DNA of 64,000 nt from Gammaproteobacteria bacterium (GTDB taxonomy: Bacteria; Pseudomonadota; Gammaproteobacteria; JAADJB01). A program made the translations under genes and the position numbers. Numbering within the stretch: position 1 is the stretch's first letter; the number at the start of each line of letters is the position of its first letter. Under the pieces are notes generated by a model that did not search any database, had not been told where the DNA came from, and saw only the letters and a program-made list of their open reading frames with translations. Of this stretch, positions 8,868 through 49,472 are shown piece after piece. The DNA lies in assembly GCA_013151035.1 (NCBI GenBank), contig JAADJB010000023.1, positions 1 through 64,000 of the forward strand. Reading direction: 5' to 3'.

Positions 8868-9029
8868 GAGATATGATCTGCTTTGCTCTATCAGAGACCG
8901 TTGCCCGCACGACTGCATGGATGCAGGAGGTAGAGCAACGCAGGAGCAGTTGCCGAAAAGACGCGGGCATCGAGCCACCATGGATGGTTTCACGGCGTGT
9001 CTCTGATAGAGCAGAGCGGATCATGTCTC
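8868..9029 (+). repeat. Long-stem structured repeat, copy A
   Basis: A 31-bp arm (8868-8898) pairs with 8999-9029. The three imperfect positions are all U.G on the plus strand. The core between the arms carries a closing CCGT/ACGG pair, an ACCAT-GG-ATGGT hairpin, and the first hairpin (GCCCGC/GCGGGC) split by an inserted module at 8913-8956. The module itself forms two hairpins, with loops containing AUGGAU and CAGGAG. The outer flanks GTTAACTCAA on the left and CTCGAA-TACCAAGCATAT on the right are shared with copy C. It lies between ruvB and ybgC, both on the minus strand. Confidence 0.9.
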
Positions 9030-9068
9030 GAACATACCAAGCATATATTCCAATGAAATAACCACCCA

Positions 9069-10112
9069 TTACCCCAAACCCAACTCATCACCCTGCGGCA
9101 CCGACAAACCCAGATGCTGATAGGCACTAGCCATTGCCACCCGCCCTCTCGCTGTACGCATTAACAAACCCTGCTGAATCAAATAAGGCTCAATCACATC
9201 CTCAATGGTACCGCGTTCCTCACCAATCGCCGCCGCCAGACTATCAACACCCACCGGGCCACCAGCAAACTTATCAATAATGGCACGCAGCAGATGATGA
9301 TCCATCACATCCAGACCCTTGTCATCCACACCCAGCATCTTCATTGCCTTGGTAACCACCTCATTGCTGATAGTACCATCATGTTTAACCTCAGCATAAT
9401 CACGCACCCGGCGTAACAAACGATTGGCAATCCGTGGTGTACCACGAGAACGTCGCGCCAGCTCATCAGCCCCGGCATCATCAATGGTCACCCCCAGTAT
9501 CTCAGCGGAACGCCGGATAATATAGGCCAGATCCTTTACCTGATAAAACTCCAGGCGCTGAACAATACCAAAACGATCCCGCAGGGGAGAGGTCAACAGA
9601 CCTGCACGCGTGGTGGCACCGACCAGGGTAAAAGGTGGCAGATCAATCTTGATCGAACGCGCCGCCGGCCCCTCACCGATCATAATATCCAGCTGATGAT
9701 CCTCCATTGCCGGATACAACACCTCCTCAACCACCGGGCTCAGGCGATGAATCTCATCAATAAACAACACATCATTCGGTTCCAAATTAGTCAACAGAGC
9801 CGCAAGATCCCCCGCCCGTTCCAGCACCGGACCCGAGGTCTGACGCAGGTTGACTCCCATCTCATTAGCAATAATATGCGCCAGTGTGGTCTTGCCCAAC
9901 CCCGGCGGGCCAAAGATCAACACATGATCCAACGCCTCTTCACGTCTTTTCGCCGCATGAATAAAGATCTCCATTTGCTCACGCACCGCCACCTGCCCAA
10001 TGTACTCCGCCAGCGATTGAGGACGCAAGGCACGATCAACCCGCTGTTCTTCAATACCCGTCGGTGCATTTGAAATTAGACGATCTTCTTCTATCATTAT
10101 CTGCTCATTCAC
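9069..10112 (-). CDS. ruvB: Holliday junction helicase RuvB
   Basis: An AAA+ hexameric motor that drives branch migration with RuvA at Holliday junctions. Walker A is GPPGLGKTT (about residues 69-77) and Walker B is DEIHRL. The sensor/arginine finger region [18 protein letters not shown] follows, then a C-terminal winged helix. 347 residues is standard. It follows ruvA after a 195-base spacer that holds repeat copy B. In most relatives ruvA and ruvB nearly abut, so the repeat has been inserted or has expanded here. Confidence 0.98.
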
Positions 10113-10183
10113 TGCTATCCCGTTAAGGATTTATTTAATTACTGTAATAACATGATGTTTATCAAAAAAATACGTTTGGTAAG

Positions 10184-10303
10184 TTCGAGATATGAAGCGA
10201 CTATTATTAACAGAGACCGTCAGCCGCAGGGATGCGGCTGTCGAGCCACCATGGATGGTTTCACGGCGAGTCTTTGTTAATAATAGTCGCTTCATATCTC
10301 GAA
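10184..10303 (+). repeat. Long-stem structured repeat, copy B
   Basis: A 34-bp arm (10184-10217) pairs with 10270-10303, with a single non-Watson-Crick position, a plus-strand G.U. The arm sequence is unlike the arms of copies A, C, D and E, yet the core is conserved: AGCCGCA-GGGA-TGCGGCT and ACCAT-GG-ATGGT hairpins, then CACGGCG. It ends 4 bases before the ruvA stop codon. Confidence 0.92.
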
Positions 10304-10307
10304 TTCA

Positions 10308-10910
10308 TCACTTAACAATCCCCTGTAAAGCCTGACGAATAATCTCCTCACTACTCAAGCCCTCACCATCCACCGCCCGCACCATCTTGTTCGCATCCGC
10401 TTCCTTATATCCCAGCGACACCAAGGCATCAACTGCATCACTCATTACACTGGCAGCAGATCCCCGTGATTGACCACCCGCAACCGATGTTGCTGAACTC
10501 AAATCCCACTTGGCAATCCGGTCGCGCATCTCCATTACCAACCGTCCAGCCGTCTTTTTACCCACCCCGGGCAGACGTGTCAACGCCGTCAGATCTTCAC
10601 TCTCAATATGAAGAATAAACTCATCCACTGGAAAACCGGAAAGGATAGTCAGTGCCAGCTTGGCACCCACTCCATTAATCTTGATCAGGTAACGAAATAA
10701 ACGACGTTCTGTCTCAGCATAAAAGGCATACAGGATCTGTGCATCTTCACGCACATGCAAATGGGTATACAGAGTTAGTTTTGCCCCGACATCAGGAAGA
10801 TCATAGAAGGTACTCATCGGCGCCTCCAGTTCATAACCCACACCTTGCACATCGAGTAACAGAAAGGGAGCCTGTTTCTCCAGCAACACGCCATGCAGAC
10901 GACCGATCAT
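10308..10910 (-). CDS. ruvA: Holliday junction DNA helicase subunit RuvA
   Basis: A tetrameric junction-binding protein that targets RuvB. The N-terminal OB fold (1-63) is followed by tandem helix-hairpin-helix motifs (about 70-130, including [19 protein letters not shown]). The C-terminal UBA-like domain III binds RuvB. 200 residues is normal. The start overlaps the ruvC stop by 4 bases (ATGA). Confidence 0.97.
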
Positions 10911-11410
10911 TTTGCCCCCTGAGAAGAAAGACTATCCAGGGTTTGACGAACATGACTATGACACAAAGCAACAGCCAAGGCATCGGCTGCATCCTCCTGT
11001 GGGATACCGGATAATTTTAACAAGGCAGTCACCATGTGTTGAACCTGTTGTTTACTGGCATTCCCTTTCCCCACCACCGCCTGTTTTATCTCTGTCGGGG
11101 CAAATTCAGCCACCGACAAGGACTGCATCACCCCGGCACAAATCGCAGCCCCGCGCGCCTGTCCCAGTTTCAATGCCGAGTCTGCATTGCGGTGCATAAA
11201 TACCCGCTCAATCGCCATCTCATCCGGCTTGTATTGTTCAATCACCTCGGTCAGATCCTCAAATATCAACTTCAAACGATCCGCCAGAGACCCCCCCTTT
11301 ATGCGCAGACAACCACTGGCGATATAGACATTCTTCCGCGCCTGCACCTCGATAATACCGTAACCGGTAATCCTGGAACCAGGGTCAACACCAAGGATAC
11401 GTAGTGACAT
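10907..11410 (-). CDS. ruvC: Crossover junction endonuclease RuvC
   Basis: A Holliday junction resolvase of the RNase H-like fold. Acidic catalytic residues are visible in [11 protein letters not shown] (Asp8), MAIERVF (Glu67) and [13 protein letters not shown] (near residues 139-142). 167 residues. It is coupled to ruvA by ATGA overlap and follows yebC after 14 bases. Confidence 0.97.
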
Positions 11411-11424
11411 CGTTACAGCTATGG

Positions 11425-12168
11425 CTATAACTGCGCCAGGATTTCTTCTGAGATATCTGCATTGGAAGAAACCTCCTGCACATCATCCAGCTCCTCCAGC
11501 ATATTGATTAGACGCATCATCTTCTCCGCATCCTTCAAATCCAGTTCAGCCGAGGTCGATGCCTGCATACTGACCTCAGCCAGTTCGGGTTTCAGACCAG
11601 CCGCAATCATAGCATCCTTCACATTCACAAATTCATGGGGATCGGTTAATACATCAATGGAACCATCATCATTAGTCACCACATCATCCGCACTGGCCTC
11701 CAGCGCCGCATCCATAATGGCATCCTCATCGCTGCCTGCCGGATAGCTTATCATTCCGGTCTTGGTAAACAGATAAGATACCGAGCCATCCGTACCCATA
11801 TTACCACCACTCTTGGAAAAGGCATGGCGCACCTCAGCAACGGTACGATTCTTGTTATCGGTCAGGCAATCCACCATCACCGCAACACCACCCGGGCCAT
11901 AACCCTCATAACGAGCCTCTTCGTAATTCACACCCTCCAGAGTACCTGCACCACGCTTGACTGCGCGGTCAATGGTATCCTTGGACATATTGCCTGACAG
12001 CCCCTTATCAATCGCCAGGCGCAGGCGTGGGTTGGAGTCCGGATCATCACCGCCCATTCTTGCAGCAACCGTGATCTCACGGATCAGGCGTGTAAATAAT
12101 TTGCCGCGCTTGGCATCTTGTGCACCTTTACGGTGCTGGATATTTGCCCATTTACTATGTCCAGCCAT
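11425..12168 (-). CDS. yebC: YebC/PmpR family transcriptional regulator
   Basis: A member of the TACO1/YebC family. Members act as DNA-binding regulators, and some assist translation of polyproline stretches. The signature [21 protein letters not shown] opens the protein. The middle contains [20 protein letters not shown] and the typical [15 protein letters not shown]. 247 residues is standard. It is the usual upstream neighbour of ruvCAB. Confidence 0.95.
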
Positions 12169-12206
12169 GATTCTTTACCTTGATTTTTGTTTAACAATTC
12201 AGTCAT

Positions 12207-12228
12207 GGTGCGTGGTACGCACCCTACC
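12207..12228. repeat. REP-like palindrome, family 2, copy 2
   Basis: GGTGCGTGGTACGCACC followed by CTACC, identical to the copy at 6199. It lies in the spacer between nadA and yebC. Confidence 0.85.
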
Positions 12229-12230
12229 CA

Positions 12231-13325
12231 TTACGGTGATACCTCCAGCATCCGCTGCAATGCCAACCTTGCCTGATCAGCGGTATCGGTCGGCACGCTA
12301 ATCTTGTTCACCACATGACCCTCTACCAGATTCTCTAACACCCACAACAGATGCGCCGGATCAATACGGAACATAGTGGAACACATACAAACTGTTGGCG
12401 ACATAAAGTGCACCGACTTGCCTTCACCACAAAACTGCTCATGTAAACGATTGACCAGATTCAACTCGGTTCCTACCAACCAGCGCGTGTCGGGTGCAGA
12501 ATCAGCAATGGTCTTGATAATATATTCGGTAGACCCGACATAATCTGATTTCTGACAGACCTCAAACGAGGACTCTGGATGAGAGATAATCTTTGCATCC
12601 GGGTATTGCTGTTTGAAATTATCAATATGCTCCGGCTTGAACATCTGATGCACCGAACAAAAACCCTTCCACAGAATAACTCTGGCATCCAGAATCTGTT
12701 GCTCAGTTAGACCACCCATAGGCAGGTCATAATCCCATACCACCATCTCATCCAGTGGAATATCCATACTGTAACCGGTATTTCTACCCAAATGCTGGTC
12801 GGGGAAAAACAGGATTTTGTCACGTTGATGAAACGCCCACTCCATCACATGCCGGGCATTAGTCGAAGTACAAACAACACCCCCATGACGACCACAAAAC
12901 CCCTTCAAATTAGCATCCGAATTAATATAGGTAATCGGTGTGATCTGCTCATCCGGTTTCAACACCGACTTCAGTTCTAACCAACAGCGTTCAACCTTCG
13001 CCAGATCAGCCATATCCGCCATTGAACAACCTGCCGACAGATCGGGAAGGATAGCTGATTGCTCTGGACGCGACAGGATATCCGCCACCTCTGCCATAAA
13101 ATGCACACCACAGAAGACGATAAATTCTGCCGATGATTGCGCAGCCTGACGCGACAGCTTGAGCGAATCACCGGAGAAATCGGCATGCTGAAACACCTCA
13201 TCACGTTGATAATGATGCCCGAGGATAATCAGTCGATCCGCCAGCGCTGCACGCGCCGCACGAATACGCTGCTGGCATTCCTGCTCATCAATCTGTTGAA
13301 CAATATCCATCGCAAGTGCTGCCAT
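12231..13325 (-). CDS. nadA: Quinolinate synthase NadA
   Basis: NadA condenses iminoaspartate with dihydroxyacetone phosphate to quinolinate in de novo NAD synthesis, using a [4Fe-4S] cluster. Motifs seen are LGHHYQRDEV (near residue 36), the first cluster Cys in GCSMAD, the second in VVCTSTNA and the third in TVCMCSTMF. 364 residues. The start lies 3 bases after the aspS stop, so it is cotranscribed. Its place between aspS and yebC is unusual. In Pseudomonas and E. coli nadA sits on the far side of the tol-pal cluster, beside the tRNA-Lys. Confidence 0.97.
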   Translation of the reverse strand: MAALAMDIVQQIDEQECQQRIRAARAALADRLIILGHHYQRDEVFQHADFSGDSLKLSRQAAQSSAEFIVFCGVHFMAEVADILSRPEQSAILPDLSAGCSMADMADLAKVERCWLELKSVLKPDEQITPITYINSDANLKGFCGRHGGVVCTSTNARHVMEWAFHQRDKILFFPDQHLGRNTGYSMDIPLDEMVVWDYDLPMGGLTEQQILDARVILWKGFCSVHQMFKPEHIDNFKQQYPDAKIISHPESSFEVCQKSDYVGSTEYIIKTIADSAPDTRWLVGTELNLVNRLHEQFCGEGKSVHFMSPTVCMCSTMFRIDPAHLLWVLENLVEGHVVNKISVPTDTADQARLALQRMLEVSP

Positions 13326-13328
13326 TAA

Positions 13329-15110
13329 TTAACTCTCAATAACCGGTTTCTTATGCAGACGAATATGTAGCTCACGCAATTGCTGATCACTCACCGTAGC
13401 TGGCGCATCGGTTAATAGACAAGCCGCTGTCTGGGTCTTGGGGAAAGCCATCACTTCACGAATAGAGGCTGCCCCCGTCATCAACATCACCAGACGATCA
13501 ATACCAAAGGCAATACCGCCATGAGGAGGACAACCATGCTTCAGGGCTGTTAACAGGAAGCCAAACTGACGTTCCGCCTCATCATCATCGATGCCCAATG
13601 ATTTAAACACCTGCTGCTGAACCTCGGCATCATGGATACGGATTGAACCACCGCCCACCTCGGTACCATTTAACACCATGTCATAGGCACGGGATTCACA
13701 CAGACCCGGAGAAGATTCCAGCATATCCAGGTGTTCCGTCCTGACCGCCGTAAAGGGATGATGCAACGAGGTCCAGCGAGCCGACTTCTCGTCCCACTCG
13801 AACATCGGGAAATCAACCACCCATAGTGGTTTCCAACCATGCTCAACCAGACCAAGATCATGACCCAGTTTGATACGTAAGGCACCTAACGCCTCATTAA
13901 CAATGGTTGCCTTGTCCGCACCAAAGAAGATCAGATCGCCATCCGCTGCCTCGGTACGTTGCAGGATGGCATCGACCACCTCGTCCGGCAGGAATTTAAG
14001 GATCGGTGATTGCAAACCCTCACGCCCGTCGGCAATGCAATTAATCTTGATATAAGCCAGACCGCGTGCACCATAAACTGCGACATATTTGGTGTAATCG
14101 TCGATCTCCTTACGACTAAGACTCTTACCACCCGGCACCCGCAATGCCGCAACACGACCTTGCTTATCCTTCGCCGGGCCAGAAAACACCTTGAACTCGA
14201 CATCTTTCATCACATCGCCAAGATCAACCAACTCCAGAGGGATACGCAAATCCGGTTTATCGCTACCATAACGCAACATCGCCTCGGCATAACTCATGCG
14301 CGGGAACGGCTCATGCAATGGAATTTCCAACACTTCAGCAAACAGATGACGCATCATTTCTTCCATCATCGACATGATCTGGTCTTCATCCAGGAATGAG
14401 GTTTCGATATCCAGCTGGGTAAATTCAGGTTGGCGATCAGCACGCAGATCCTCATCACGGAAACAGCGTACGATCTGGTAATAACGATCCATACCCGAGA
14501 CCATTAACAACTGCTTAAATATCTGTGGTGACTGCGGCAAGGCAAAAAAGGCACCCTCATGGGTACGGCTTGGCACCAGATAATCGCGCGCACCCTCAGG
14601 GGTTGCCTTGGTCAGGATAGGTGTCTCAATATCGAGAAAGCCCTTGTTATCCAGAAACTGACGGATCATGCTGGAGACCCTGGCACGAATACGAATACGT
14701 TCCAGCATCTCGGGACGACGCAGGTCAATATAACGATAACGCAAACGTAACTCTTCCGAGGTGTCGGTATCATCAATCTGAAAAGGCGGTGTCTCGGAAC
14801 GATTAAGAATCACCAGATCCTTCGCCAGGATCTCGATTTCACCCGTTGGCATATCCGAGTTGACCGTACCCTCGGGACGATTTCTGACCAGACCTTTTAT
14901 CTGCAACACATATTCACTACGCACACGCTCTGCATCGCGGAATATCTCGGCACGATCCGGGTCAAACACCACCTGTAACAAACCCTCACGATCACGCAGA
15001 TCAATAAAGATCACTCCGCCATGATCCCGACGTCGATGCACCCAACCACAAACTGTAATTTCTTCATCCAACTGGGACGTATTTAATTCACCACAATAAT
15101 GACTTCGCAC
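13329..15110 (-). CDS. aspS: Aspartyl-tRNA synthetase
   Basis: A class IIb synthetase that charges tRNA-Asp. The N-terminal OB anticodon-binding domain (1-110, [23 protein letters not shown]) is followed by motif 2 ([18 protein letters not shown]), the bacterial GAD insertion domain (about 290-420) and motif 3 ([15 protein letters not shown]). 593 residues is the bacterial type. Whether it also charges tRNA-Asn cannot be told from this window. It heads the nadA-yebC-ruv series, downstream of fmdB. Confidence 0.98.
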
Positions 15111-15131
15111 TGCATTGTTTCCTTCTTAATG

Positions 15132-15204
15132 GGTGCGTGGTACGCACCCTACCGTTTATGGTGCGTGGTACGCACCCTACCGTTTATGATGCGTGGTACG
15201 CACC
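15132..15204. repeat. Triple tandem REP-like palindrome, family 2
   Basis: Three units lie head to tail: 15132-15153 and 15160-15181 (both full 22-mers), then 15189-15204 (partial, ATGCGTGGTACGCACCA). CGTTTATG spacers separate them. They fill the fmdB-aspS spacer and form a local cluster, as REP elements often do. Confidence 0.88.
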
Positions 15205-15208
15205 AAGG

Positions 15209-15433
15209 TTATTTTTTAGCGTTATCCGAACTCGCTATATTCTTTTTACTACCCTGTTTGAAATCAGTCTCATACCAGCCATTCCCCTTCAAACGAAAGG
15301 CAGCAGCAGAGATAATCTTTTTCAACGCCGGTTTTCTGCATTTTGGACAATCCGTCAACGGATCATCACTCATCTTCTGTATCTTTTCCAACTGATGCTC
15401 ACAGTTTTCGCATCGGTATTCATAAATCGGCAT
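15209..15433 (-). CDS. FmdB family zinc ribbon protein
   Basis: A 74-residue putative regulatory protein. It opens MPIYEYRCENCEH with two CXXC knuckles (CENC and CPKC) forming a zinc ribbon, then a basic KKIISAAAFRLKGNGWYETDF segment that is the family signature. I chose 15433 as the start because a GAGGGG ribosome binding site lies 8 bases upstream. Longer upstream frames lack one. Genes of this family often precede aspS. The function is not established. Confidence 0.93.
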   Translation of the reverse strand: MPIYEYRCENCEHQLEKIQKMSDDPLTDCPKCRKPALKKIISAAAFRLKGNGWYETDFKQGSKKNIASSDNAKK

Positions 15434-15514
15434 AAAACAACCCCTCAACAATATCATCCCATTATATAGTGTGGTCAAAGGGGATGCGAGAATCATTTAT
15501 CAATATACGCTATC

Positions 15515-17317: not shown

Positions 17318-17355
17318 GAGGTCAGCAGGTTTCATCGCACGGAGCATTAATAGGA

Positions 17356-17505
17356 GTTCGTGGAACTCTTCGAGGGGACACAGCAGATAAAGCCTGCTAT
17401 GTCCCCGGCCTGTGCCGGCCTAAAAATAGACACCGACCCGCATCACATTGAACCGGGGACATAGCAAGGCTTTATCTGCTGTGTCCCCTTAAGCACGTAC
17501 CACAG
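17356..17505. repeat. 150-bp palindromic repeat (BIME-like), copy 1
   Basis: Two 37-38 bp arms (17372-17408 and 17453-17490) are inverted copies of each other, differing by one inserted base. Each arm also folds on itself (GGGGACA-AGCA / TGCT-TGTCCCC). A 44-base centre lies between. A second copy at 18150-18301 differs by one substitution and a 2-base insertion. Confidence 0.92.
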
Positions 17506-17528
17506 GCTCAAAAATGAACAGGGGAACC

Positions 17529-17761
17529 CTACTTACGTCTAGCCACACCGATCAGCCCCAAAAGACCTGAGCCAAATAACCACATTGCTGCGGGTACAGG
17601 TACCGCACTGACATCGCCCGAGCGCACAGCCCATGCATAGATGTCAAAAGTCTTATCGAAGTAATCTTGCTCACCATTACTCATATCGAACCCCCCGCGT
17701 AAACAGGAAAAGGTCCAGACTCCGTGGCCGACCAATAGACGCTAGACTGAAAACACGCAAT
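17529..17761 (-). pseudogene. Frameshifted remnant of a DUF1566/Lcl-type PEP-CTERM protein
   Basis: The 3' part encodes YAWAVRSGDVSAVPVPAAMW followed by LFGSGLLGLIGVARRK. This is a gammaproteobacterial PEP-CTERM-like sorting tail: a VPVPAA motif, one TM helix and a basic end. Just upstream on the same strand but in another frame, residues FQSSVYWSATESG (about 17722-17761) match the YWSxTE motif that precedes such tails in DUF1566 proteins. The gene is therefore frameshifted between about 17700 and 17730, and its 5' end is missing: no homologous coding sequence is seen beyond 17765. A few codons of a second such tail (AGA CGT) survive near 18331-18336, beside the second BIME copy. Confidence 0.75.
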
Positions 17762-17765
17762 AATC

Positions 17766-17983: not shown

Positions 17984-18036
17984 GGGTAGCAGGTTTCGGC
18001 GCATGGTAATCAACCGGATCGGATAACACCATCCGA

Positions 18037-18123
18037 GGCTGGGTGGTTACAGACAGGCAGCAGGATGTTGGCCGCAGGGACGGATTCACGGCGACCCTGA
18101 TGAATGTCTGTAAGCAGCCAGCC
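18037..18123 (+). repeat. Long-stem structured repeat, divergent copy F
   Basis: The left arm (18037-18064) and right arm (18095-18123) are imperfectly complementary and unrelated in sequence to the other copies. The core keeps TTGGCCGCAGGGA-CGGATTCACGGCG, a shortened form of the family core with the two hairpins collapsed. TTTCGGCGCA (17994-18003) and TTTCGGCACA (18126-18135) flank the region and may be a target duplication. Confidence 0.7.
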
Positions 18124-18149
18124 GATTTCGGCACACAGAGATAATATGG

Positions 18150-18301
18150 GTTCGTGGAACTCTTCGAGGGGACACAGCAGATAAAGCCTGCTATGTCCCC
18201 GGCCTGTGCCAGCCTAAAAATAGACACCGACCCGCATCACACATTGAACCGGGGACATAGCAAGGCTTTATCTGCTGTGTCCCCTTAAGCACGTACCACA
18301 G
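18150..18301. repeat. Palindromic repeat (BIME-like), copy 2
   Basis: Near-identical direct copy of 17356-17505: one substitution and a 2-base insertion over 150 bases. The similarity extends past the right end in degraded form (GGGGACCCTATTACGTCT, 18316-18333), matching the 3' end of the PEP-CTERM remnant next to copy 1. Confidence 0.92.
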
Positions 18302-18341
18302 ACCCAGAGATAAGCATGGGGACCCTATTACGTCTAAAAGC

Positions 18342-28817: not shown

Positions 28818-28979
28818 GAGACAGGGATTACGCTTATCTACCAGAGACCCTTGCCCGCATGGACGCGGGCGTGGAGCCTACACGCCTACATGGATGTAGG
28901 TAGGTAGAGCAATGCAGGAGCAATTGCCGACGGATGTATTCACGGCGTGTCTCTGGTAGAGAAGCGTGATTCATGTCTC
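28818..28979 (+). repeat. Long-stem structured repeat, copy C
   Basis: A 31-bp arm (28818-28848) pairs with 28949-28979. Of four imperfect positions, two are plus-strand G.U wobbles. The first hairpin GCCCGC-ATGGAC-GCGGGC is intact. A 45-base module (28886-28930), homologous to that in copy A, is inserted in the second hairpin instead of the first. Flanks GTTAACTCAA and CTCGAATTTACCAAGCATAT match copy A. It ends about 25 bases before the pgeF stop. Confidence 0.9.
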
Positions 28980-30755: not shown

Positions 30756-30790
30756 CTGCCCGTCAACTCAAGAGACGGGGATTGCTCTTC
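30756..30790. repeat. Half copy (left arm only) of the long-stem repeat
   Basis: CTGCCCGTCAACTCAAGAGA followed by CGGGGATTGCTCTTCT matches the left flank and first half of the arm of copies C and E. No core or right arm follows. The fragment is bracketed by a short inverted repeat (CCGGAAATA at 30741, TATTTTCCGG at 30791). It lies in the rluD-bamD divergent spacer. Confidence 0.75.
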
Positions 30791-30860
30791 TATTTTCCGG
30801 TATACTTCACAATATACAAACGTCATAATATACCTTCTAAAAATCAACAATCAACGAGAC

Positions 30861-33743: not shown

Positions 33744-33857
33744 GAGATAGGGCTTGCTCTTCTTTATCAGAGACCGTTGGCCGCATGGACGCGGCCATCG
33801 AGCCACCATGGATGGTTTCACGGCGTGTCTCTGATAAAGGAGAACAAGCCCTATCTC
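33744..33857 (+). repeat. Long-stem structured repeat, copy D
   Basis: A 31-bp arm (33744-33774) pairs with 33827-33857, with two imperfect positions: one plus-strand U.G and one C.A. The core has hairpins GGCCGC-ATGGAC-GCGGCC and ACCAT-GG-ATGGT, then CACGGCG. The right arm ends 4 bases before the sucD stop codon. Confidence 0.92.
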
Positions 33858-39974: not shown

Positions 39975-40002
39975 AAGATCCACCTGGTCTTAAACAAGAC
40001 CA

Positions 40003-40158: not shown

Positions 40159-41868
40159 ATGGCTAGCACAGAAACAAATATCGCACTGAGTGGTCTGGCT
40201 AAACGGCTGGTTACTGATAAGCTAATGAGCCCCGAAGATGCCGCTCATGCGCAAGAAGAATCCAGCAAGAAACGTCAACCTTTTGTGCGTTACCTGATTG
40301 AGAACAAGCTTACCGATAGTTATTCCATTGCCTGGTCTGCCTGCCAGGAGTTTGGTATTCCCCTGTTTGATCTTGATAGTATTGATGTCGATTCGTCTGC
40401 CGCCAACATGGTCGATGAAAAACTAATTCGTCAGCATCATGCGATCCCCTTGTTCAAACGCGGTTCACGCCTGTTTGTTGCCGTATCCGATCCCACTAAT
40501 CTGCAAGCACTGGATGAGTTCAAGTTCCACACGGGTAATACTACCGAACCGATCCTGGTAGAAGAAGACAAGCTTCAGGCAGTCATTGAAGCAATGATGG
40601 AATCCATGAATTCCAACATGACCGACCTGCTGGATGATGACCTGGAAAATCTTGACATCACCTCTGGCGAAGAAGAGGAAGACGATGATGATGAATCCGG
40701 TATCGACGACACCCCCGTTGTTCGCTTTGTAAACAAGATCCTGCTGGACGCCATCAATAAAGGTGCCTCGGATATTCACATTGAGCCCTATGAAAAAGAC
40801 TTTCGGGTTCGTTTTCGCCAGGATGGTGTACTCTCCGAGATTACTCACCCGCCACAGGCACTGGCCAAACGCATTGTTGCCCGCCTCAAGGTCATGAGTC
40901 GCATGGATATTGCCGAACGTCGATTACCACAGGATGGTCGCATCAAGATGCATCTATCCAAGACCCGTTCCATTGATTTTCGTGTCAATTCCTGTCCCAC
41001 TCTGTTTGGTGAAAAAGTCGTATTACGCATCCTGGATCCCAGCAGTGCCAAATTGGGTATTGATGCACTTGGCTACGAAGATGAGCAAAAGAAATTATTC
41101 ATGGAGGCACTGGAAAAACCCTACGGCATGTTACTGGTGACCGGACCAACGGGTAGTGGTAAAACGGTTTCGTTGTATACCGGCCTGAACATTCTAAACA
41201 CCGAAGATCGCAATATCTCCACCTGTGAAGACCCTGTTGAAATCAACCTGTCCGGCATTAACCAGGTCAACATGAACCCCAAGGCAGGCCTGACCTTTGC
41301 CTCAGCCCTACGCGCCTTTCTACGTCAAGATCCTGATATCATCATGGTCGGTGAGATTCGTGATACTGAAACTGCCGAGATTGCCGTCAAGGCGGCGCAA
41401 ACAGGTCACATGGTTTTGTCTACCCTGCATACCAATGATGCCCCGCAGACACTGACACGTCTCACTAATATGGGTATCCCGAACTATAACCTGGCAACCG
41501 CCGTTAATTTAATTATTGCCCAACGACTGGCTCGCAGACTCTGTAAAAACTGCAAAGAACAGGATGATATCCCGGAAGATGAATTACGTGCCCAAGGTTT
41601 TGAAGAAGAACTCATCCCTAACATGAAGGCCTACAAAGCAGTCGGGTGCGAACAATGCAAGGGTGGCTATAAAGGTCGTGTCGGTATATACCAGGTTATG
41701 CCTATCTCTGAAGAGATGAAGCGTCTGATTATGGAAGATGCCAATTCCATCGAGCTGGCTGATCAAGCTAAAAAGGAAGGCATCCCCGATCTACGTGTAT
41801 CCGGGTTACGCAAGGTAGCACAAGGTGTCACCAGCCTTGAAGAAATCAATCGGGTTACCAAGGATTAA
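40159..41868 (+). CDS. pilB: Type IV pilus assembly ATPase PilB
   Basis: A hexameric extension motor. The N-terminal MshEN-like domain (about 1-165) precedes an acidic linker (EEEEDDDDESG). The GspE core has Walker A GPTGSGKT (329-336), an Asp box and DPDIIMVGEIRD, then His box HMVLSTLHTNDAP. The CKNCKEQ...CEQCKGG tetracysteine zinc site is present. 569 residues. The first gene of pilBCD-coaE. Confidence 0.96.
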   Translation: MASTETNIALSGLAKRLVTDKLMSPEDAAHAQEESSKKRQPFVRYLIENKLTDSYSIAWSACQEFGIPLFDLDSIDVDSSAANMVDEKLIRQHHAIPLFKRGSRLFVAVSDPTNLQALDEFKFHTGNTTEPILVEEDKLQAVIEAMMESMNSNMTDLLDDDLENLDITSGEEEEDDDDESGIDDTPVVRFVNKILLDAINKGASDIHIEPYEKDFRVRFRQDGVLSEITHPPQALAKRIVARLKVMSRMDIAERRLPQDGRIKMHLSKTRSIDFRVNSCPTLFGEKVVLRILDPSSAKLGIDALGYEDEQKKLFMEALEKPYGMLLVTGPTGSGKTVSLYTGLNILNTEDRNISTCEDPVEINLSGINQVNMNPKAGLTFASALRAFLRQDPDIIMVGEIRDTETAEIAVKAAQTGHMVLSTLHTNDAPQTLTRLTNMGIPNYNLATAVNLIIAQRLARRLCKNCKEQDDIPEDELRAQGFEEELIPNMKAYKAVGCEQCKGGYKGRVGIYQVMPISEEMKRLIMEDANSIELADQAKKEGIPDLRVSGLRKVAQGVTSLEEINRVTKD

Positions 41869-41904
41869 TCCAGTCACATACAACTCATTAGAGGGTTTCT
41901 AATT

Positions 41905-43128
41905 TTGGCAACAAAAAAAAAGGCACTAAGTAAGTTTAACTGGGAAGGCACCAACAAGGCCGGTAAGAAGGTTAAGGGAATAACTGAGGCCAAAAGCCCG
42001 GCTATGGTCAAGGCCGAACTGCGACGCAAGGGCATTACCCCAATCAAGGTGAAGAAGAAATCGGATTTTTTTGCGAATGCACGATCACCAAAGCCGATAT
42101 TACCCAAGGACATTTCTATCTTCACTCGCCAACTGGCAACCATGATGGCCGCCGGGGTACCGCTGGTTCAATCCTTTGACATTATCGGCAGTGGGCATGA
42201 CAACGCCAGCATGCAAAAACTCATCATGGAGGTTAAGGCTGATGTTGAAGGCGGTAGCAACCTGGCTGAGGCCTTGTCCAAACACCCCTTATACTTCGAT
42301 GATCTAGTTTGCAATCTGGTTGAGGCAGGTGAACAGGCGGGTGTACTTGATACCCTGTTGGACAAGATTGCAACCTACAAGGAAAAAACCGAACTTTTAA
42401 AGAGCAAGATCAAAAAGGCTCTGTTCTATCCGGTAGCGGTACTGATCGTTGCCTTTATTGTTACTGCTATCCTGCTGATTTTTGTGGTTCCCCAGTTTGA
42501 AGAATTATTCAATGGCTTTGGTGCCGACCTTCCTGCCTTTACACAAATGGTGATTCGACTATCCGAATGGATGCAGGAATGGTGGTGGGCAGTACTCGGC
42601 ACACTCTGGGCAATAAAGAATGGTATCTCACAGGCCAACCGCCGATCCAAGGCCTTTAATCGAGGCGTTGACCGATTACTATTAAACTTACCTATCGTCG
42701 GTGAGATATTGAACAAGGCATGCATCGCGCGCTACGCACGCACCCTGGCAACCATGTTTGCTGCTGGCGTGCCATTGGTTGAGGCACTACAAAATGTGGC
42801 TGGCGCCACCGGCAACGTAGTTTATACCAATGCTATTTTAGCCATGAAGGATGAGGTCTCAACCGGAACACAACTACAAGAGGCAATGACCAGTGCCGAT
42901 GTTTTTCCGAACATGGTTATTCAAATGGTCGCCATTGGTGAGGAATCCGGCTCCCTGGATCACATGCTGGGCAAGGTGGCTGACTTCTATGAACAAGAGG
43001 TCGATGATGCTGTTGATGGTCTAAGTAGCCTGTTAGAACCTATTATCATGGCGGTACTAGGTGTACTTGTTGGTGGCTTGATCATCGCCATGTATCTACC
43101 CATATTCAAGATGGGTTCAGTGGTATAA
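41905..43128 (+). CDS. pilC: Type IV pilus inner membrane platform PilC
   Basis: The platform protein of the pilus motor. It has two cytoplasmic T2SSF domains, about 70-190 and 272-394, and three TM helices (around 170-195, 220-240 and 375-395). The start is TTG, with GAGG about 10 bases upstream. No ATG fits better. 407 residues. Confidence 0.95.
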   Translation: MATKKKALSKFNWEGTNKAGKKVKGITEAKSPAMVKAELRRKGITPIKVKKKSDFFANARSPKPILPKDISIFTRQLATMMAAGVPLVQSFDIIGSGHDNASMQKLIMEVKADVEGGSNLAEALSKHPLYFDDLVCNLVEAGEQAGVLDTLLDKIATYKEKTELLKSKIKKALFYPVAVLIVAFIVTAILLIFVVPQFEELFNGFGADLPAFTQMVIRLSEWMQEWWWAVLGTLWAIKNGISQANRRSKAFNRGVDRLLLNLPIVGEILNKACIARYARTLATMFAAGVPLVEALQNVAGATGNVVYTNAILAMKDEVSTGTQLQEAMTSADVFPNMVIQMVAIGEESGSLDHMLGKVADFYEQEVDDAVDGLSSLLEPIIMAVLGVLVGGLIIAMYLPIFKMGSVV

Positions 43129-43139
43129 AAGAGAATACT

Positions 43140-44021
43140 ATGGAAGCTTTGATTGAACTATTACAACAAAACCAGAACTTGCTCATCATCAGCACCTTAA
43201 TACTGGGTTTAATGGTCGGTAGCTTTCTCAACGTAGTGATCTATCGACTACCCAAAAAGCTGAACCAGGAATGGACACACCAGTGCAAGGTTCTGCTAAA
43301 TCCGGAACATAACGAAGAACCACCCAAGGCGATTAGCTTACTCTGGCCTGGCTCTCATTGCCCCCACTGTAAGCATGAAATTACCGCACTACAGAACATA
43401 CCGATATTGAGTTATCTGTTACTCCGTGGTCAATGCGCAAACTGCAAACAAGCTATTTCACCGCGCTACCCGATCATTGAGGCCATCACAGGCCTATTAT
43501 CCGGCTTGCTTGCCTGGCACTTTGGTTTTAGCTGGGCACTACTAGGTACTCTGTTGTTATTCTGGTCACTGATCTCACTCACCATGATTGATATTGATCA
43601 TCAGATCCTGCCCGATGTCATCACCCTGCCGTTACTCTGGATTGGCATACTGTTCAATTACCATAGCATCTATATCAGCCTGCAAGACAGCATACTCGGG
43701 GCAGTATTGGGTTATCTCTCACTGTGGGGCATCTTCCACCTGTTCCGTCTGCTAACAGGCAAAGAGGGGATGGGTTATGGTGACTTCAAACTACTCGCCG
43801 TACTCGGTGCCTGGATGGGATGGAAACTCCTTCCTACTATTATCCTGTTATCCTCCCTGGTCGGTGCTGTTGTTGGTATTGCTATGATCCTGATCCTTGG
43901 TCGTGACCGTCAGATCCCCATTCCTTTTGGCCCTTACCTGGCTGGCGCAGGTATCATTGCATTATTTCAAGGGGATGCAATCACCAGTGCCTACCTTAAC
44001 TGGGCTGGACTTGCTTACTGA
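43140..44021 (+). CDS. pilD: Prepilin peptidase PilD
   Basis: An aspartyl membrane protease that cleaves and N-methylates prepilins. The zinc site is CPHC...CANC (about 75-105). Catalytic aspartates lie in DIDHQILPD and GYGDFKLLA. Eight TM helices are predicted over 293 residues. It overlaps coaE by one base. Confidence 0.97.
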   Translation: MEALIELLQQNQNLLIISTLILGLMVGSFLNVVIYRLPKKLNQEWTHQCKVLLNPEHNEEPPKAISLLWPGSHCPHCKHEITALQNIPILSYLLLRGQCANCKQAISPRYPIIEAITGLLSGLLAWHFGFSWALLGTLLLFWSLISLTMIDIDHQILPDVITLPLLWIGILFNYHSIYISLQDSILGAVLGYLSLWGIFHLFRLLTGKEGMGYGDFKLLAVLGAWMGWKLLPTIILLSSLVGAVVGIAMILILGRDRQIPIPFGPYLAGAGIIALFQGDAITSAYLNWAGLAY

Positions 44022-44620
44022 TGCTGCGCATTGGTCTCACGGGGGGTATCGCTAGCGGAAAAAGTGAAGCAGCCCGATTATTTGCTTCATTCAATACACC
44101 CATCATTGATGCCGATGAAATTGCCCATCAACTAACTCAGGCAGGACAGACGACACTAACCCGTATCAGCCAATGTTTTGGGAAAGAATATATCCACAGT
44201 AATGGCACACTGGATCGTAGCCGATTACGCACATTGATATTCGCAGATAATAACAAGCGCCAACAACTTGAGGCTATTCTACATCCCCTGATCCACCAAG
44301 GTATGAGCGAACAACTGGCACGCCTGCACGACCCTTATTGCATCCTTGTTATTCCTTTATTATTTGAAACCGGATTTACTGACCTCATTGATCGCATACT
44401 GGTTATTGATACTCCGGAACAGAACCAACGACAACGAGCCAGTCAACGCGACAAGACTTCTACTGCCAGTATACAGGCGATTATCGACAGCCAGACGACA
44501 CGCCAGGAGCGCATCAGCAAAGCCGATGACATTATTTATAATGATGCTAACCTGGAGCATCTATATCAACAGGTAGAGATACTTGATAATAAATATCGAG
44601 ACCTCGCCAGAGCTAGATAA
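44021..44620 (+). CDS. coaE: Dephospho-CoA kinase
   Basis: It phosphorylates dephospho-CoA in the last step of CoA synthesis. P-loop GGIASGKS (residues 8-15), IIDADEIAH (substrate binding) and a lid Arg region are present. 199 residues. It ends the pilBCD-coaE transcript. Confidence 0.95.
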   Translation: MLRIGLTGGIASGKSEAARLFASFNTPIIDADEIAHQLTQAGQTTLTRISQCFGKEYIHSNGTLDRSRLRTLIFADNNKRQQLEAILHPLIHQGMSEQLARLHDPYCILVIPLLFETGFTDLIDRILVIDTPEQNQRQRASQRDKTSTASIQAIIDSQTTRQERISKADDIIYNDANLEHLYQQVEILDNKYRDLARAR

Positions 44621-44624
44621 TACT

Positions 44625-44665
44625 GGACAAGCATAGAAAACACGCATAAAGTCTATGCTTGTTCC
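44625..44665. terminator. Long hairpin after coaE, possible terminator
   Basis: A 13-bp stem (GGACAAGCATAGA / TCTATGCTTG-TTCC, one bulge) has a 14-base loop. The T-tract is weak, so intrinsic termination is uncertain. It could instead stabilise the 3' end of the pil-coaE mRNA. Confidence 0.5.
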
Positions 44666-44699
44666 CGTGCGGGGGCAGGGGGAATTGAGGAATAATCAT

Positions 44700-44968
44700 T
44701 AAGGAACCTCTGATCAATTATATATTGTGACTGCGTGACCTGAAGAGTGCAGTTGCAAGGCGCAATTCGAAGCTAATGGCCTGAGTCCTTGGCGAGAGTT
44801 GTAACGTAGCAAATGTGCGCTTCAGACCGCGCCCGTAGGGGCTTACAGGTCTGTCCGTGCTCGGCGTTATGATTTTTTACCAGACCCAGGCATGGCTTCA
44901 AAACCATGCCTTGATCACGAACAGACCTGTAAGCCAGGCATAACATATAATTGATCAGGGGTTCCTTA
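44700..44968. mobile_element. MITE-like element with 24-bp terminal inverted repeats
   Basis: TAAGGAACCTCTGATCAATTATAT (given in two parts: 44700-44723) is inverted at 44945-44968 with a single difference. The element is 269 bp and codes for no credible protein. A TA dinucleotide at each end is compatible with a TA-type target duplication, as in IS630-like elements. Internal inverted repeats (CTTACAGGTCTGT near 44853 and its complement near 44921; AGGCATGG/CCATGCCT near 44890) add structure. It sits between coaE and zapD. Confidence 0.8.
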
Positions 44969-44971
44969 GTA

Positions 44972-45802
44972 ATGAAAAATGCTGCCAGCAACATACCGGA
45001 AGACTCTCCTGTGGCCGAATCACCACAAACAGCTCAACACAAAATTATCTATGAACAGCCTCTAAACGAACGTATACGCGCCTTTTTACGACTAGAGGCA
45101 CTGTTCCAGCAAGTCCGTTATCACCTATCCGGTAATAATGCCTGGGACAGTCGCGCTGCACTCTCGGGGTTTCTTGAAATACTGGATATCTTTACCCGTA
45201 GCGACCTCAAAACCGAAGTAATGAAAGAACTGGATCGACACACCGTCAATCTTGCCCGATTGGAAAAAAACCCACAGGTTGATCGTCAGCAACTCGCTCT
45301 CATCCTTGACGAGATGGATACACTAATTGACCAACTGCACAATCTGGGTGGACAACTCATTGCACCATTAAAAGACCACGAACTCATAAACAACATTCAG
45401 CAACGCAATAGCATACCCGGTGGCAGTTGTGATTTTGATCTGCCCACCTACCATTTCTGGTTACAACAACCAGCAGAGAAACGACTCCATGATATTGCAT
45501 CCTGGCTATCTCACTTTGATGCCATTGCGCAATCAATAAAACTGATTCTACGACTTACCCGGGACAGCAATCTATTCACCAGTGAACTTGCCAAAAAAGG
45601 CTTCTGGCAAAAAAATCTTGATGCCAACAGCCCATGTCAGATGGTAAGAGTTGCATTACCCACAGACTCCCCCTTCTTTGCCGAGATCAGCGGCGGACGC
45701 CATCGTTTCAGCGTACGTTTTCTTCAACAGATATCACCACAGGAAAGACCCTGCAAGGCAGATCAAGACATCAGTTTCGAGATTTCTTGCTGTATCATAT
45801 AG
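44972..45802 (+). CDS. zapD: Cell division protein ZapD
   Basis: It cross-links FtsZ protofilaments at the division ring. The protein has the typical YEQPLNERIRAFLRLEALFQQ-like start (about residues 25-45), an all-helical N-terminal region and a C-terminal beta domain. I set the start at 44972 (ATGAAAAATGCT), giving 276 residues. The AGGGG ribosome binding site lies in the right inverted repeat of the MITE. The 3' end overlaps the convergent protease gene by 8 bases. No yacG follows. Confidence 0.9.
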   Translation: MKNAASNIPEDSPVAESPQTAQHKIIYEQPLNERIRAFLRLEALFQQVRYHLSGNNAWDSRAALSGFLEILDIFTRSDLKTEVMKELDRHTVNLARLEKNPQVDRQQLALILDEMDTLIDQLHNLGGQLIAPLKDHELINNIQQRNSIPGGSCDFDLPTYHFWLQQPAEKRLHDIASWLSHFDAIAQSIKLILRLTRDSNLFTSELAKKGFWQKNLDANSPCQMVRVALPTDSPFFAEISGGRHRFSVRFLQQISPQERPCKADQDISFEISCCII

Positions 45803-47186
45803 GGGACACAACGCGAAAACAGCCAATCCGGCCATTACGACACTCCAACACTATTGCACCATCCATATTGTCATCAAATATCACCTGCAACTCGCTCAGA
45901 GTATGAACCTCTTTCTCATTTGCCTTCACAATCAATTCACCTGCGAACCATTCCATTTCATCTGCCTGTGTACCCTGATGTATGTGTGTAACCACCAACG
46001 TTGGCCTTTCCTGCTCAATAGTTTGTAACATATCAATCTGTGCGTTGGCATCCACTTCACGCATTGCCTCGATAATGTCTATACTTAATTCCTGGATAAC
46101 CATACCAAAAATCTCAAGGTATTTTCTCTCATCAATAATGGGGTTAGAGACGACACTTCTCTCAGGGTTACGCATAGCAATAGCTTGCACTGTATGTAAC
46201 TCACCCTCTCTAAGATAAGCCATCTCAACAGATTGACCTATGGGTATCAGTTTTATTACATCGTATATATTTTTATGTCTAAAAGAACCTTCTTTACCAA
46301 TAACAATACCATGACGATCAAACTCCACACCATTAACAGACAAAATAACATCACGCTTCTTCATCTTTGCCGCTTCAAGAAAACCACATGGTTTGATACT
46401 GGCAACGATTACACCTTTTGCTACTGATTGTTTTAACAGAGCGTTAAAGTTTTCTGTATTTTTTTGCAACATACCACCGAACCCGGAAAATTGAGGTTCA
46501 TTATGCTGCAACAAGTTATCAATAATAATTTTTACAAATCCTGCCGGCGTTATAAAACCAATATTGTCCGCATCAATGATGACCGAGGTATTCAAACCAA
46601 CCACATTGCCATCTTCATCAATACTTGGCCCACCCGAATTACCTGGATTGATAGCGGCATTCGTTACAAATCTTTCTGTTGTATATTCTGAACCTGATAC
46701 AAAGTTGGTTATTTCACCCCCGGTAATATTGGGCTCGACCATGCCCATAGGGTATCCAATTGCCTTTATTTTTTCACCGCGTGATGGGCTTGATCCTTCC
46801 CTCAGTTGAAGGTACTCAATATTCCTCAGCGCAAGCTTTTTAAAACGAAGTAATTCCTTCACGGTGAGCTTAAGTAAAGCCACATCAGGATCAAGTTTTT
46901 TCACCAGCCCAACAAGCTCTGCTTTAAATCTTTCTTCACTTGTAAGCATTGAACTTATTTCAATCTTTACCGCATTCCTGGCCACATGAGCATTAGTGAC
47001 GATATAACCTTCAAGATCACCATACTTAACGAAAAAGCCTGAGCCTGACCAGGTTCCGGGTATCCTGATGGCAGGGTTCAATACCGATTGAATATCTTCT
47101 TCTATATTACCTTCAACATGGATCTGCACGACACCACTCATCATGTCACGGGCAATATCACTAAACTTATTGTTATTTATTGACAT
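45795..47186 (-). CDS. Deg/HtrA-type serine protease with two PDZ-like domains, no signal peptide
   Basis: A 463-residue trypsin-fold protease. The triad is His67 (VTNAHVA), Asp101 (DPDVALLKL) and Ser184 (NPGNSGGPS). A first PDZ-like region spans about 235-330 (GVIVASIKPCGFLEAAKMKK). A second spans about 360-455 (GELIVKANEKEVHTLSELQ). Unlike DegP/DegS, it has no signal peptide or TM helix, so a cytoplasmic location is likely, as in some Deg-like proteins of plants. It overlaps the Nudix gene by 10 bases. Composition is AT-richer than the neighbours. It occupies the place where yacG is usually found. Confidence 0.85.
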   Translation of the reverse strand: MSINNNKFSDIARDMMSGVVQIHVEGNIEEDIQSVLNPAIRIPGTWSGSGFFVKYGDLEGYIVTNAHVARNAVKIEISSMLTSEERFKAELVGLVKKLDPDVALLKLTVKELLRFKKLALRNIEYLQLREGSSPSRGEKIKAIGYPMGMVEPNITGGEITNFVSGSEYTTERFVTNAAINPGNSGGPSIDEDGNVVGLNTSVIIDADNIGFITPAGFVKIIIDNLLQHNEPQFSGFGGMLQKNTENFNALLKQSVAKGVIVASIKPCGFLEAAKMKKRDVILSVNGVEFDRHGIVIGKEGSFRHKNIYDVIKLIPIGQSVEMAYLREGELHTVQAIAMRNPERSVVSNPIIDERKYLEIFGMVIQELSIDIIEAMREVDANAQIDMLQTIEQERPTLVVTHIHQGTQADEMEWFAGELIVKANEKEVHTLSELQVIFDDNMDGAIVLECRNGRIGCFRVVSPI

Positions 47187-48175
47187 GCTTTATACCCGGA
47201 AACCCCATACAAACCTGTTATCGCGGCAATACCTTGTGCACCACAAGCCCTGACCTCACCTAGATCGACAGGCAACATCCCTCCCAGGGCATAGACCGGA
47301 AATCCGACATCACGAATCAACCCTGCCAAAGCAGCCATCCCGATAGGCACAGCATGGGGATGACTCTGTGTTACCTTGACTGGAGACAAGACGACAAAAT
47401 CCACACCAATACGAGCCGCCTGTAATAAATCATCTCGCGTATGACAGGAGGCTGCAACCCATTGCGCCTCGCCCAGAGGTCTTTCTGATAATGACCACAA
47501 GCGATCCCCATTCAGATGAACTCCTTGCGCACCACAGGCAGAAACCATTGCTGCATCGGCATTCAATAATATATCTGCACCATATTCCTGACACAACTGA
47601 ACAACAGGGCCAGCATAATCCTGATAATCTTTTGCTGAAAGTAGCGGATCACGATATTGCACCAGACGCACACCCGCTTCCAGACTAATACGCAAATCAT
47701 CCAGAAACATCGGTTGACTATAAGGTGTTGAATCCGGGGTAATCAGATAACGATCTGACAATCTAATGGCATGAATAATCGCTCGGTTAGCCTGTGGAAA
47801 TGAATATTCAGCCAATAAATCCTGCGACACCCATTGCACAGGCTGACCTTCACAGGCATGCATCACACCCTGAAATTCATCCACCAGCCAGACATCAAGC
47901 AAGACCTTGCGGTCGGGATAACAATAAGGAATCTGAATCAAGGGATGAGCCGCAACCACCTCAAGATCAAGCTCTTCTTTTATCTCACGCAATAGAGCCT
48001 GATAAGACGACTCACCTGACTCCAACTTCCCTCCGGGAAACTCCCACAAATCACCCTGATCAACATTATCAGGACGCTTTGCAATTAAGACCCGAGCCCT
48101 CTTATCACGAATAACCGCAACGGCTACACGCAAGCAATCAGGATCGATATTCTGCGTTGATGCGTACATAATCAT
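47177..48175 (-). CDS. Nudix hydrolase (MutT) fused to a thiamine-phosphate-synthase-like domain
   Basis: A fusion of an 8-oxo-dGTPase-type Nudix domain and a ThiE-like TIM barrel. The Nudix box GGKLESGESSYQALLREIKEELDL spans about residues 45-68 (quoted here as GGKLESGES...REIKEEL). The barrel (about 130-330) has VQYRDP, ILLNADA, GVHLNGD, FVVLSPV and ALGG motifs. The VQYRDP form lacks the Lys of VQYRDK in active ThiE. Start 48175 or 48169 (ATG) overlaps the argJ 3' end. Function of the second domain is unproven. 332 residues. Confidence 0.88.
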   Translation of the reverse strand: MIMYASTQNIDPDCLRVAVAVIRDKRARVLIAKRPDNVDQGDLWEFPGGKLESGESSYQALLREIKEELDLEVVAAHPLIQIPYCYPDRKVLLDVWLVDEFQGVMHACEGQPVQWVSQDLLAEYSFPQANRAIIHAIRLSDRYLITPDSTPYSQPMFLDDLRISLEAGVRLVQYRDPLLSAKDYQDYAGPVVQLCQEYGADILLNADAAMVSACGAQGVHLNGDRLWSLSERPLGEAQWVAASCHTRDDLLQAARIGVDFVVLSPVKVTQSHPHAVPIGMAALAGLIRDVGFPVYALGGMLPVDLGEVRACGAQGIAAITGLYGVSGYKACQ

Positions 48176-49328
48176 ATGAGAAATCACAGGTCCACATGGA
48201 TTCTTCAACCTCACCCCGACCCAATTCTACCCGGATAGTAATCTCATTCTGTGACATAACGTGTTGACCCTGCTCCTCGCTATAATCCGGATCAGGATCA
48301 CCTCCGCGTATAATGCGAACATTACCCAGGTAAAGATCGACAGTAGCAATATCCAAGCCATCAACATCCGCTCGACCCACCGCGGCAAGAATACGACCCC
48401 AGTTCGGATCACTGGCAAACAGCGCCGTCTTTACCAGGGGTGAGTGGGCAATGGCATCCGCCACCGCCAAACATTCTGCACTATCGGCACCGCCCGCAAC
48501 CGTCACTGTAACAAACTTGGTCGCGCCCTCACCATCACGAACAATGGCCTGTGCCAATTCCACACAAAGTTCAACCAGTAGCCGACAAAAATCACCCCAT
48601 GCCGCATCGCCAGCAACGAGACCCACACCTGAACACCCGGTCGCCATCAACACACAAGAGTCATTAGTAGAGGTATCACCATCCACCGTAATCCGGTTAA
48701 ACGATTGATCAACCGCCGCATGCAGGGCATCTTGTAACAGATTAATCTCGATATCAGCATCCGTCGCAATGAAAGACAGCATGGTCGCCATATCAGGGCG
48801 AATCATGCCGGAACCCTTGGCGATACCTGTCAAGGTAATGCTTCTACCATTGACCTGCATCTGCCGGGAACAGGCTTTGGCAACAGTATCAGTGGTTAAA
48901 ATACCGTGTGCCGCTGCCTCCCAGCCATCAACATCCAGGGCATTCAGAGCAGGCTGAATACCGGCTTCAAGCCTGGATATGGGTAATTGTTCACCAATCA
49001 CCCCGGTTGAAAAGGGCAACACCTGCTGTGTTGTACAAGTCACTAGCTGCGCCAGCACCTCACAGGATTTTTCAGCATTCAATAAACCCTGATCACCGGT
49101 TCCGGCATTGGCATTACCCGTATTAACCAAAAGATAACGAGGCAGCGTTTGCTGAAGATGTGCCCTCGCCAACTGAACCGGGGCTGCACAAAAGACGTTA
49201 CGAGTAAAAACCGCAGCGCAGTGCGCACCCTTGGCAATCTCAATCACCACCAGATCACGCTGATCCGCATAACGAATCCCGGCCTCAACCGTACCCAGAC
49301 GAATACCCTTAACTGGTAATAATTTCAA
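48138..49328 (-). CDS. argJ: Glutamate N-acetyltransferase / amino-acid N-acetyltransferase
   Basis: The ornithine-cycle enzyme of arginine synthesis. It recycles the acetyl group between acetylornithine and glutamate. The autocleavage site is in KGSGMIRPDMATMLSF, with Thr182 as the nucleophile. 396 residues. The C-terminus (YDYVRINAEYRS) is the normal end. It overlaps the Nudix gene by about 38 bases, consistent with coupling. Confidence 0.96.
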   Translation of the reverse strand: MKLLPVKGIRLGTVEAGIRYADQRDLVVIEIAKGAHCAAVFTRNVFCAAPVQLARAHLQQTLPRYLLVNTGNANAGTGDQGLLNAEKSCEVLAQLVTCTTQQVLPFSTGVIGEQLPISRLEAGIQPALNALDVDGWEAAAHGILTTDTVAKACSRQMQVNGRSITLTGIAKGSGMIRPDMATMLSFIATDADIEINLLQDALHAAVDQSFNRITVDGDTSTNDSCVLMATGCSGVGLVAGDAAWGDFCRLLVELCVELAQAIVRDGEGATKFVTVTVAGGADSAECLAVADAIAHSPLVKTALFASDPNWGRILAAVGRADVDGLDIATVDLYLGNVRIIRGGDPDPDYSEEQGQHVMSQNEITIRVELGRGEVEESMWTCDFSYDYVRINAEYRS

Positions 49329-49358
49329 TGCTACCTCACTACTGCCCCGTTAACTCAG

Positions 49359-49472
49359 GAGGCAGGGATCGCTCTTCTCTGGCAGAGACCGTTGCCCGCA
49401 GGGATGCGGGCATCGAGCCTACACGGATGTATTCACGGCGTGTCTCTGATAGAGAAGAGCGATTCATGCCTC
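49359..49472 (+). repeat. Long-stem structured repeat, copy E
   Basis: A 31-bp arm (49359-49389) pairs with 49442-49472, with four imperfect positions of which two are plus-strand G.U. Hairpin 1 is GCCCGCA-GGGA-TGCGGGC. Hairpin 2 is TACA-CGGA-TGTA. The right arm ends 11 bases before the secA stop. It is the simplest copy and I used it as the reference for the core. Confidence 0.92.

Follow-up and report, generated by a model that had tools for sequence, protein, structure and literature searches.

Five elements in a 64,000-nucleotide stretch of a gammaproteobacterial genome (contig JAADJB010000023.1, positions 1 to 64,000; hereafter the window) share a core that is closed by a long stem, and the arms of this stem differ between copies while remaining complementary within each copy. 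Two questions are raised by this locus, namely, what kind of element it contains and how the pairing of the arms is maintained.

Copies in the window and their fold

A covariance model, R1, was built from 36 copies, all from the source genome. With this model, the five copies were recovered at the positions given by the first-pass annotation (99-126 bits, E 8e-21 to 3e-27), and merely 33-48 bits were obtained on their opposite strand. The outer stem of 31-34 bp was likewise confirmed in all five, with single-strand folds of -72 to -92 kcal/mol. The inventory was incomplete, as a degenerate sixth copy and a left-arm fragment had been overlooked (Table 1). In the sixth copy, the stretch between the two GGA loops is deleted, and the arms resemble those of genome copy C33:20882. 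This copy adjoins another dispersed repeat family, a 200-bp direct repeat (17337-17531 and 18131-18327, spacing 794 bp) with inner inverted repeats (GGGGACACAGCAGATAAAGCCTGCTATGTCCCC). An Rfam scan of the window at the gathering threshold returned one tRNA and nothing else.

Table 1. Positions of the element copies and their parts in the window.
Feature	Position	Strand	Observation
Copy A (31-bp outer stem, hairpin 1 with nested insert, hairpin 2)	8868..9029	+	R1 107.4 bits; fold -91.7 kcal/mol
47-nt module in copy A	8910..8956	+	Hairpin-1 loop insert at CA^NGGA; from sequence
Copy B	10184..10303	+	R1 121.3 bits over 10187-10300
Degenerate sixth copy	18035..18125	+	R1 18.1 bits, E 0.05; from sequence
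Copy C	28818..28979	+	R1 99.0 bits
48-nt module in copy C	28883..28930	+	Hairpin-2 loop insert at CA^NGGA; from sequence
Left-arm fragment only (CGTCAACTCAAGAGACGGGGATTGCTCTTCT)	about 30761..30793	+	
Copy D, plain 114-nt form	33744..33857	+	R1 126.3 bits
Copy D hairpin 1, loop CATGGACG	33775..33799	+	Consensus fold helix 2, 99.1% of cells paired
Copy D hairpin 2, GAGCCACCATGGATGGTTTCACGGC	33800..33826	+	Consensus fold helices 3 and 4
Copy E, plain form	49359..49472	+	R1 121.2 bits

The element is a three-way fold of 114 nt, in which the long stem encloses a conserved two-hairpin core and the arms are particular to the genome and subfamily. The consensus core comprises two hairpins (loops CANGGAYG, then GAGC..CA.GGAYG..TTYACRGC). 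The core had been thought to close with CCGT/ACGG, but hairpin 2 was found to be closed by a GCC/GGC helix (columns 60-62 with 80-82). Copies A and C are longer than the others, reaching 162 nt, by one 47-48 nt module, which occupies the hairpin-1 loop in A and the hairpin-2 loop in C. The module of copy A contains two more GGA-loop hairpins, and the site occupied in copy C is identically occupied in copies L317, L326, L330, and L334. The module is also common to L066 and L077, and it enters hairpin 1 or hairpin 2 depending on the copy, as though insertion or recombination favoured the hairpin loop. Copies A and B are located inside the ruv gene cluster, A on the 3' side of ruvB and antisense to the genes, and B between ruvA and ruvB; the genes were named by reading the sequence.

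The covariation of the arms was borne out. In 36 diverse copies, the covariation score was 0.531, compared with 0.186 for shuffled arms and 0.07-0.10 when the partners were slid 1-3 columns out of register, and 96.5% of the pair cells were paired, compared with 78.7% (shuffled) and 35-46% (slid). Double-sided changes were found at 35 of the 46 pairs, and both sides were changed in 303 cells against 90 after shuffling; every shuffle was lower than the observed values, with kinship among the copies inflating the significance of the shuffles and leaving the slid control unaffected. When the stem pairs were numbered outward from the core with the first as 0, pair 10 was Watson-Crick in 94 of 98 copies and pair 14 in 90 of 98, compared with expectations of 47 and 36, respectively. 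The arm of copy B, previously described as completely different and still paired, is indeed paired (30/31 Watson-Crick), but only 12 of 31 positions per arm depart from the consensus.

Relation to YPAL/RU-2 and distribution of the family

The published Yersinia pestis RU-2 (= YPAL) sequence includes ...gcgccaaggatggcgcggctcgagcctacatggatgtatttacggcgtc..., and BLAST of RU-2 against the window matched all of the five copies except C (copy E at E 5e-7, B at 1e-4, A at 3e-4, and D at 1e-3). As judged from this similarity, the copies belong to a superfamily, YPAL/RU-2, of small palindromic repeats that are mobile but non-autonomous. The core is an already described one, with Ysr224 as its reverse-strand relative, and a match of this kind was among the outcomes named as refuting by the first-pass annotation. 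The shared features (PMC2759123, PMC2229807) are a core with two GGA-loop hairpins and GAGCCTACATGGATGTATTTACGGCGTC, in which a GGA-loop hairpin is followed by CGAGCCTACATGGATGTATTYACGGCGT, an outer inverted repeat around the core (31-34 bp here; the RU-2 fold also encloses the core), and a multicopy, intergenic occurrence without protein, with tens to about 100 copies in YPAL/RU-2 and approximately 105 here. In contrast, the arms and flanks are of unrelated sequence, and the stem described here is longer and nearly perfect. Neither the length of approximately 167 bp nor the conserved outer sequence of YPAL/RU-2 was found. As the similarity to RU-2 is limited to the core and the fold measures 114 or 162 nt, the element is regarded as a superfamily relative and not as YPAL proper.

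Reports of YPAL come from Yersinia and Erwinia and describe 3-26 bp target duplications beside dyad symmetry (PMC2229807, PMC2847712), and three YPAL matches in E. coli were listed in a Yersinia survey (PMC2847712). Ysr224 (RF02770), a Yersinia sRNA model, includes an opposite-strand core of YPAL type. It matched relatives at E 2e-9 and 1.5e-5, with scores below its gathering score of 70 bits (51 bits at best in other genomes, and no match at that level in the window); copies of the source genome were far below it (21 bits for L001). TwoAYGGAY (RF01731), which has two AYGGAY-loop hairpins on a basal stem and is a proposed CsrA binder (PMC4333381), was suspected from the loops and then rejected, as its model, searched against 12 copy-bearing loci, gave no match down to E 10. 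Bacterial MITEs such as ERIC/IRU and NEMIS/Correia are likewise small, non-coding, intergenic long-hairpin repeats, but appear to differ in sequence; TA target duplications are described for such repeats (PMC2229807). REP/BIME elements are also dispersed extragenic palindromes, but REPs measure 20-40 bp (PMC3733652), compared with the 114-nt three-way fold here. Among the extra arm matches, no larger element sharing the ends (a MITE-type parent) appeared; a mobilising gene was not found either. Based on the copy number and the YPAL literature, we infer that the element is mobile.

In the source genome, the core pattern matched 101 places, while the reversed-pattern control matched 0. The R1 search listed 137 places, some of which represent one copy counted on both strands, and the number of distinct copies was estimated from it at about 105. 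Most copies are located between ORFs, in short gaps between genes. In L318, L323, L325, L331, and L333, the inner stem and core are gone and a small perfect outer-arm hairpin is left (e.g., GAGACCGGGGTTGCCCCGGTCTC), a pattern typical of deletion within a palindrome. A retro-type 5' truncation was also considered; left-only fragments were commoner, but the right-end pattern is less sensitive, and no direction is claimed.

Among 369 genomes of the class, 29 from 26 genera carried the core, and in a second sample it was detected in 23 genomes of the same class and in 0 of about 260 genomes from other classes of the phylum. The carriers include Shewanella, Alteromonas, Marinobacter, Microbulbifer, Rheinheimera, Stenotrophomonas, Xanthomonas, and Sodalis, and the highest load was 573 matches in one complete genome (up to 2 mismatches). 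When R1 was applied to 40 loci of other genera, nearly all were recovered, with scores of up to 108 bits. The 62-nt core had no blastn match in E. coli, plasmids, or phages, a search that divergent copies may escape. The occurrence in many gammaproteobacterial genera beyond Yersinia and Erwinia is shown here; no description of this wider family was found in the open-access literature, and one may exist elsewhere. Inverted pairs with a spacing of about 190-250 bp, as well as clusters in direct tandem, were observed at L205, L164, L189, L112, and L144, in Marinimicrobium, Cellvibrionaceae, Saccharophagus, and other hosts.

Long stable hairpins between genes could also be transcription terminators or ordinary inverted repeats that arose independently at each site. 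This explanation has a negligible probability and is already refuted by the conservation of a 60-nt core across genera. Moreover, the reversed-pattern control had no matches, and neither strand has a U-tract directly after the stem.

Maintenance of stem pairing

The erosion of the sequence just outside the stem was taken as a rough measure of copy age. In old copies with eroded flanks, about 21 of 62 arm sites had changed, and still 28.2 of 31 pairs were Watson-Crick, compared with 27.1 in young copies and 19.5 when the arms were shuffled. Pairing is independent of copy age.

The consensus stem of one young subfamily contains five imperfect pairs. Within this subfamily, the imperfect pairs were changed at 15-25% of sites, compared with 3-6% for other arm sites and 3% for the core, and were 4-5 times as changeable as the remaining sites. 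The one-sided changes led to Watson-Crick pairs in 27 of 29 cases (18 in the right arm and 9 in the left arm), a count that derives mainly from one subfamily with members that are not fully independent and to which conversion between copies could have contributed a part. Resolution of the G.A cases needs transversions in all four, and G.T wobbles, which are harmless in RNA, were resolved as readily as the G.A mismatch. In addition, inverted arm duplications were found in two copies. The left flank of copy B (GGTAAGTTCGAG) equals the reverse complement of the family right flank (CTCGAACTTACC) at 9/9 positions, and in L336 the left half has been swapped for the inverted right half. Because the resolution is biased and proceeds through either arm, and because arms have been duplicated in inverted form, these patterns point to quasi-palindrome correction by template switching at the DNA level. 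In other systems, template switching is an established process by which hairpins arise and are maintained (PMC8794818; also PMC7202029 and PMC8604942).

Ectopic gene conversion between copies, instead of template switching within a copy, would also homogenise arms and cores. Cores and arms are indeed shuffled between subfamilies. Moreover, at one orthologous site in two sister species, the second elements of L344 and L346 have arms that differ and are yet self-complementary, within flanks about 90% identical; the difference reflects either replacement by conversion or re-insertion. However, conversion of one arm would usually break pairing, whereas the observed changes restore it, and the restored arm combinations are often particular to a single copy. 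Ectopic conversion is considered improbable as the explanation of the paired arms. The evidence favours a copying component, by template switching, in the preservation of the fold.

The account that we consider reasonably probable is a mobile repeat of YPAL/RU-2 type, the stem of which is kept by template switching together with purifying selection. The core and stem would be what a mobility system recognises, and copies would come to lie in gaps between genes and at operon joints and be transcribed there as a structured spacer. The stem of a young copy would be an imperfect palindrome, and during replication one arm may serve as the template for the other, a step for which the resolved pairs and inverted duplications provide direct sequence support. 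Mismatches and G.T pairs would be rewritten into perfect pairs in this manner, and a new mutation could reach both arms. The folded element is also under purifying selection.

Constraint on resident copies and the CsrA/RsmA reading

Five orthologous copies in sister species differed at 8 of 555 sites (1.4%), compared with 115 of 1160 sites in their flanks (9.9%; Fisher p 2e-12), in a sampling that demanded an intact core in both species and thus favours conserved copies. Selection also acts on resident copies. As template switching alone would not reduce the substitution rate of orthologues, selection must contribute. The earlier proposal of a fold preserved by selection or by a copying mechanism is well supported, but its addition that the sequence is not preserved goes too far, as the sister-species orthologues keep the sequence too. 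Some one-sided changes remained uncorrected in the orthologous copies, and correction is consequently slow.

These results also bear on whether the fold serves mobility alone, as folded single-stranded DNA or RNA, with selection on the mobile masters and with residents as neutral leftovers that retain the arms with which they arrived. The many subfamilies with common arms and cores, the high copy number that varies from genome to genome, and the existence of tandem, nested, and truncated copies would agree with it. However, orthologous copies are constrained after insertion, old copies with unique and heavily changed arms pair as well as young ones, and imperfect pairs in young copies are resolved in either direction. 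Mobility as the only role of the fold is thus doubtful.

The orientation of the copies was also determined. In the source genome, the GGA strand was antisense to co-directional flanking genes at a ratio of 62:11, while no preference was found in other genomes (39:29 and 25:23), and orientation toward genes was dropped as a general rule. As other genomes lack such a preference, the bias in the source genome probably reflects local history or local selection. At L001, L014, L015, and L022, the neighbouring gene seems to end at a TAA from the right end of the element (reverse complement GGTAAGTTCGAG), and an element-supplied TAA may partly explain the preference. Orientation by replication strand, suggested by contig-wise consistency, was rejected because both strands are mixed along the complete genome with 573 copies.

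Selection on RNA structure could instead keep each copy, with the GGA strand transcribed and its CANGGAYG hairpins binding CsrA/RsmA, either at sites in mRNAs or jointly as a dispersed sponge, and with compensatory mutations maintaining the stem. The CANGGAYG loops of both hairpins are in line with the CsrA/RsmA/RsmE consensus. The CANGGANG/CANGGAYG loop of hairpin 1 is present in 92 of 101 copies of the source genome and, among 147 elements of other genomes, in 96; CsrA is encoded in the source genome, and the orthologous copies are conserved. TwoAYGGAY, another two-hairpin AYGGAY RNA, matched the CsrA motif in a published scan (PMC4333381). An excess of G.T over A.C was also found on the GGA strand (191 vs 67), but much of it is inherited from one subfamily consensus. 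In addition, G.U forms good RNA pairs, and yet these positions were converted to Watson-Crick pairs at a high rate. Two further points count against this reading, namely, that the relative known from Yersinia, Ysr224, is located on the opposite strand and that other genomes have no orientation preference. Since the antisense orientation in the source genome argues against sense-strand CsrA sites, CsrA binding was kept as a rival only and is judged unlikely, although somewhat less so than the conversion and mobility-only explanations.

A combination of both is more speculative still. The core might be a mobile CsrA/RsmA site, that is, a gammaproteobacteria-wide selfish repeat that has acquired the CANGGANG hairpin, the presenting stem of which would be kept intact by template switching at the DNA level. 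If this long shot were true, genomes with tens to hundreds of copies would hold a dispersed RNA reservoir for a global regulator.

A repeat described from Yersinia is now tied to a family that occurs across many gammaproteobacterial genera, with up to hundreds of copies per genome. With more than 100 copies in one genome, the element offers a natural setting in which to test how perfect pairing is retained in long hairpins. Moreover, covariation, which is usually taken as a sign of selection on RNA, seems here to result largely from arm-to-arm copying of DNA, and this calls for caution in covariation-based RNA discovery.
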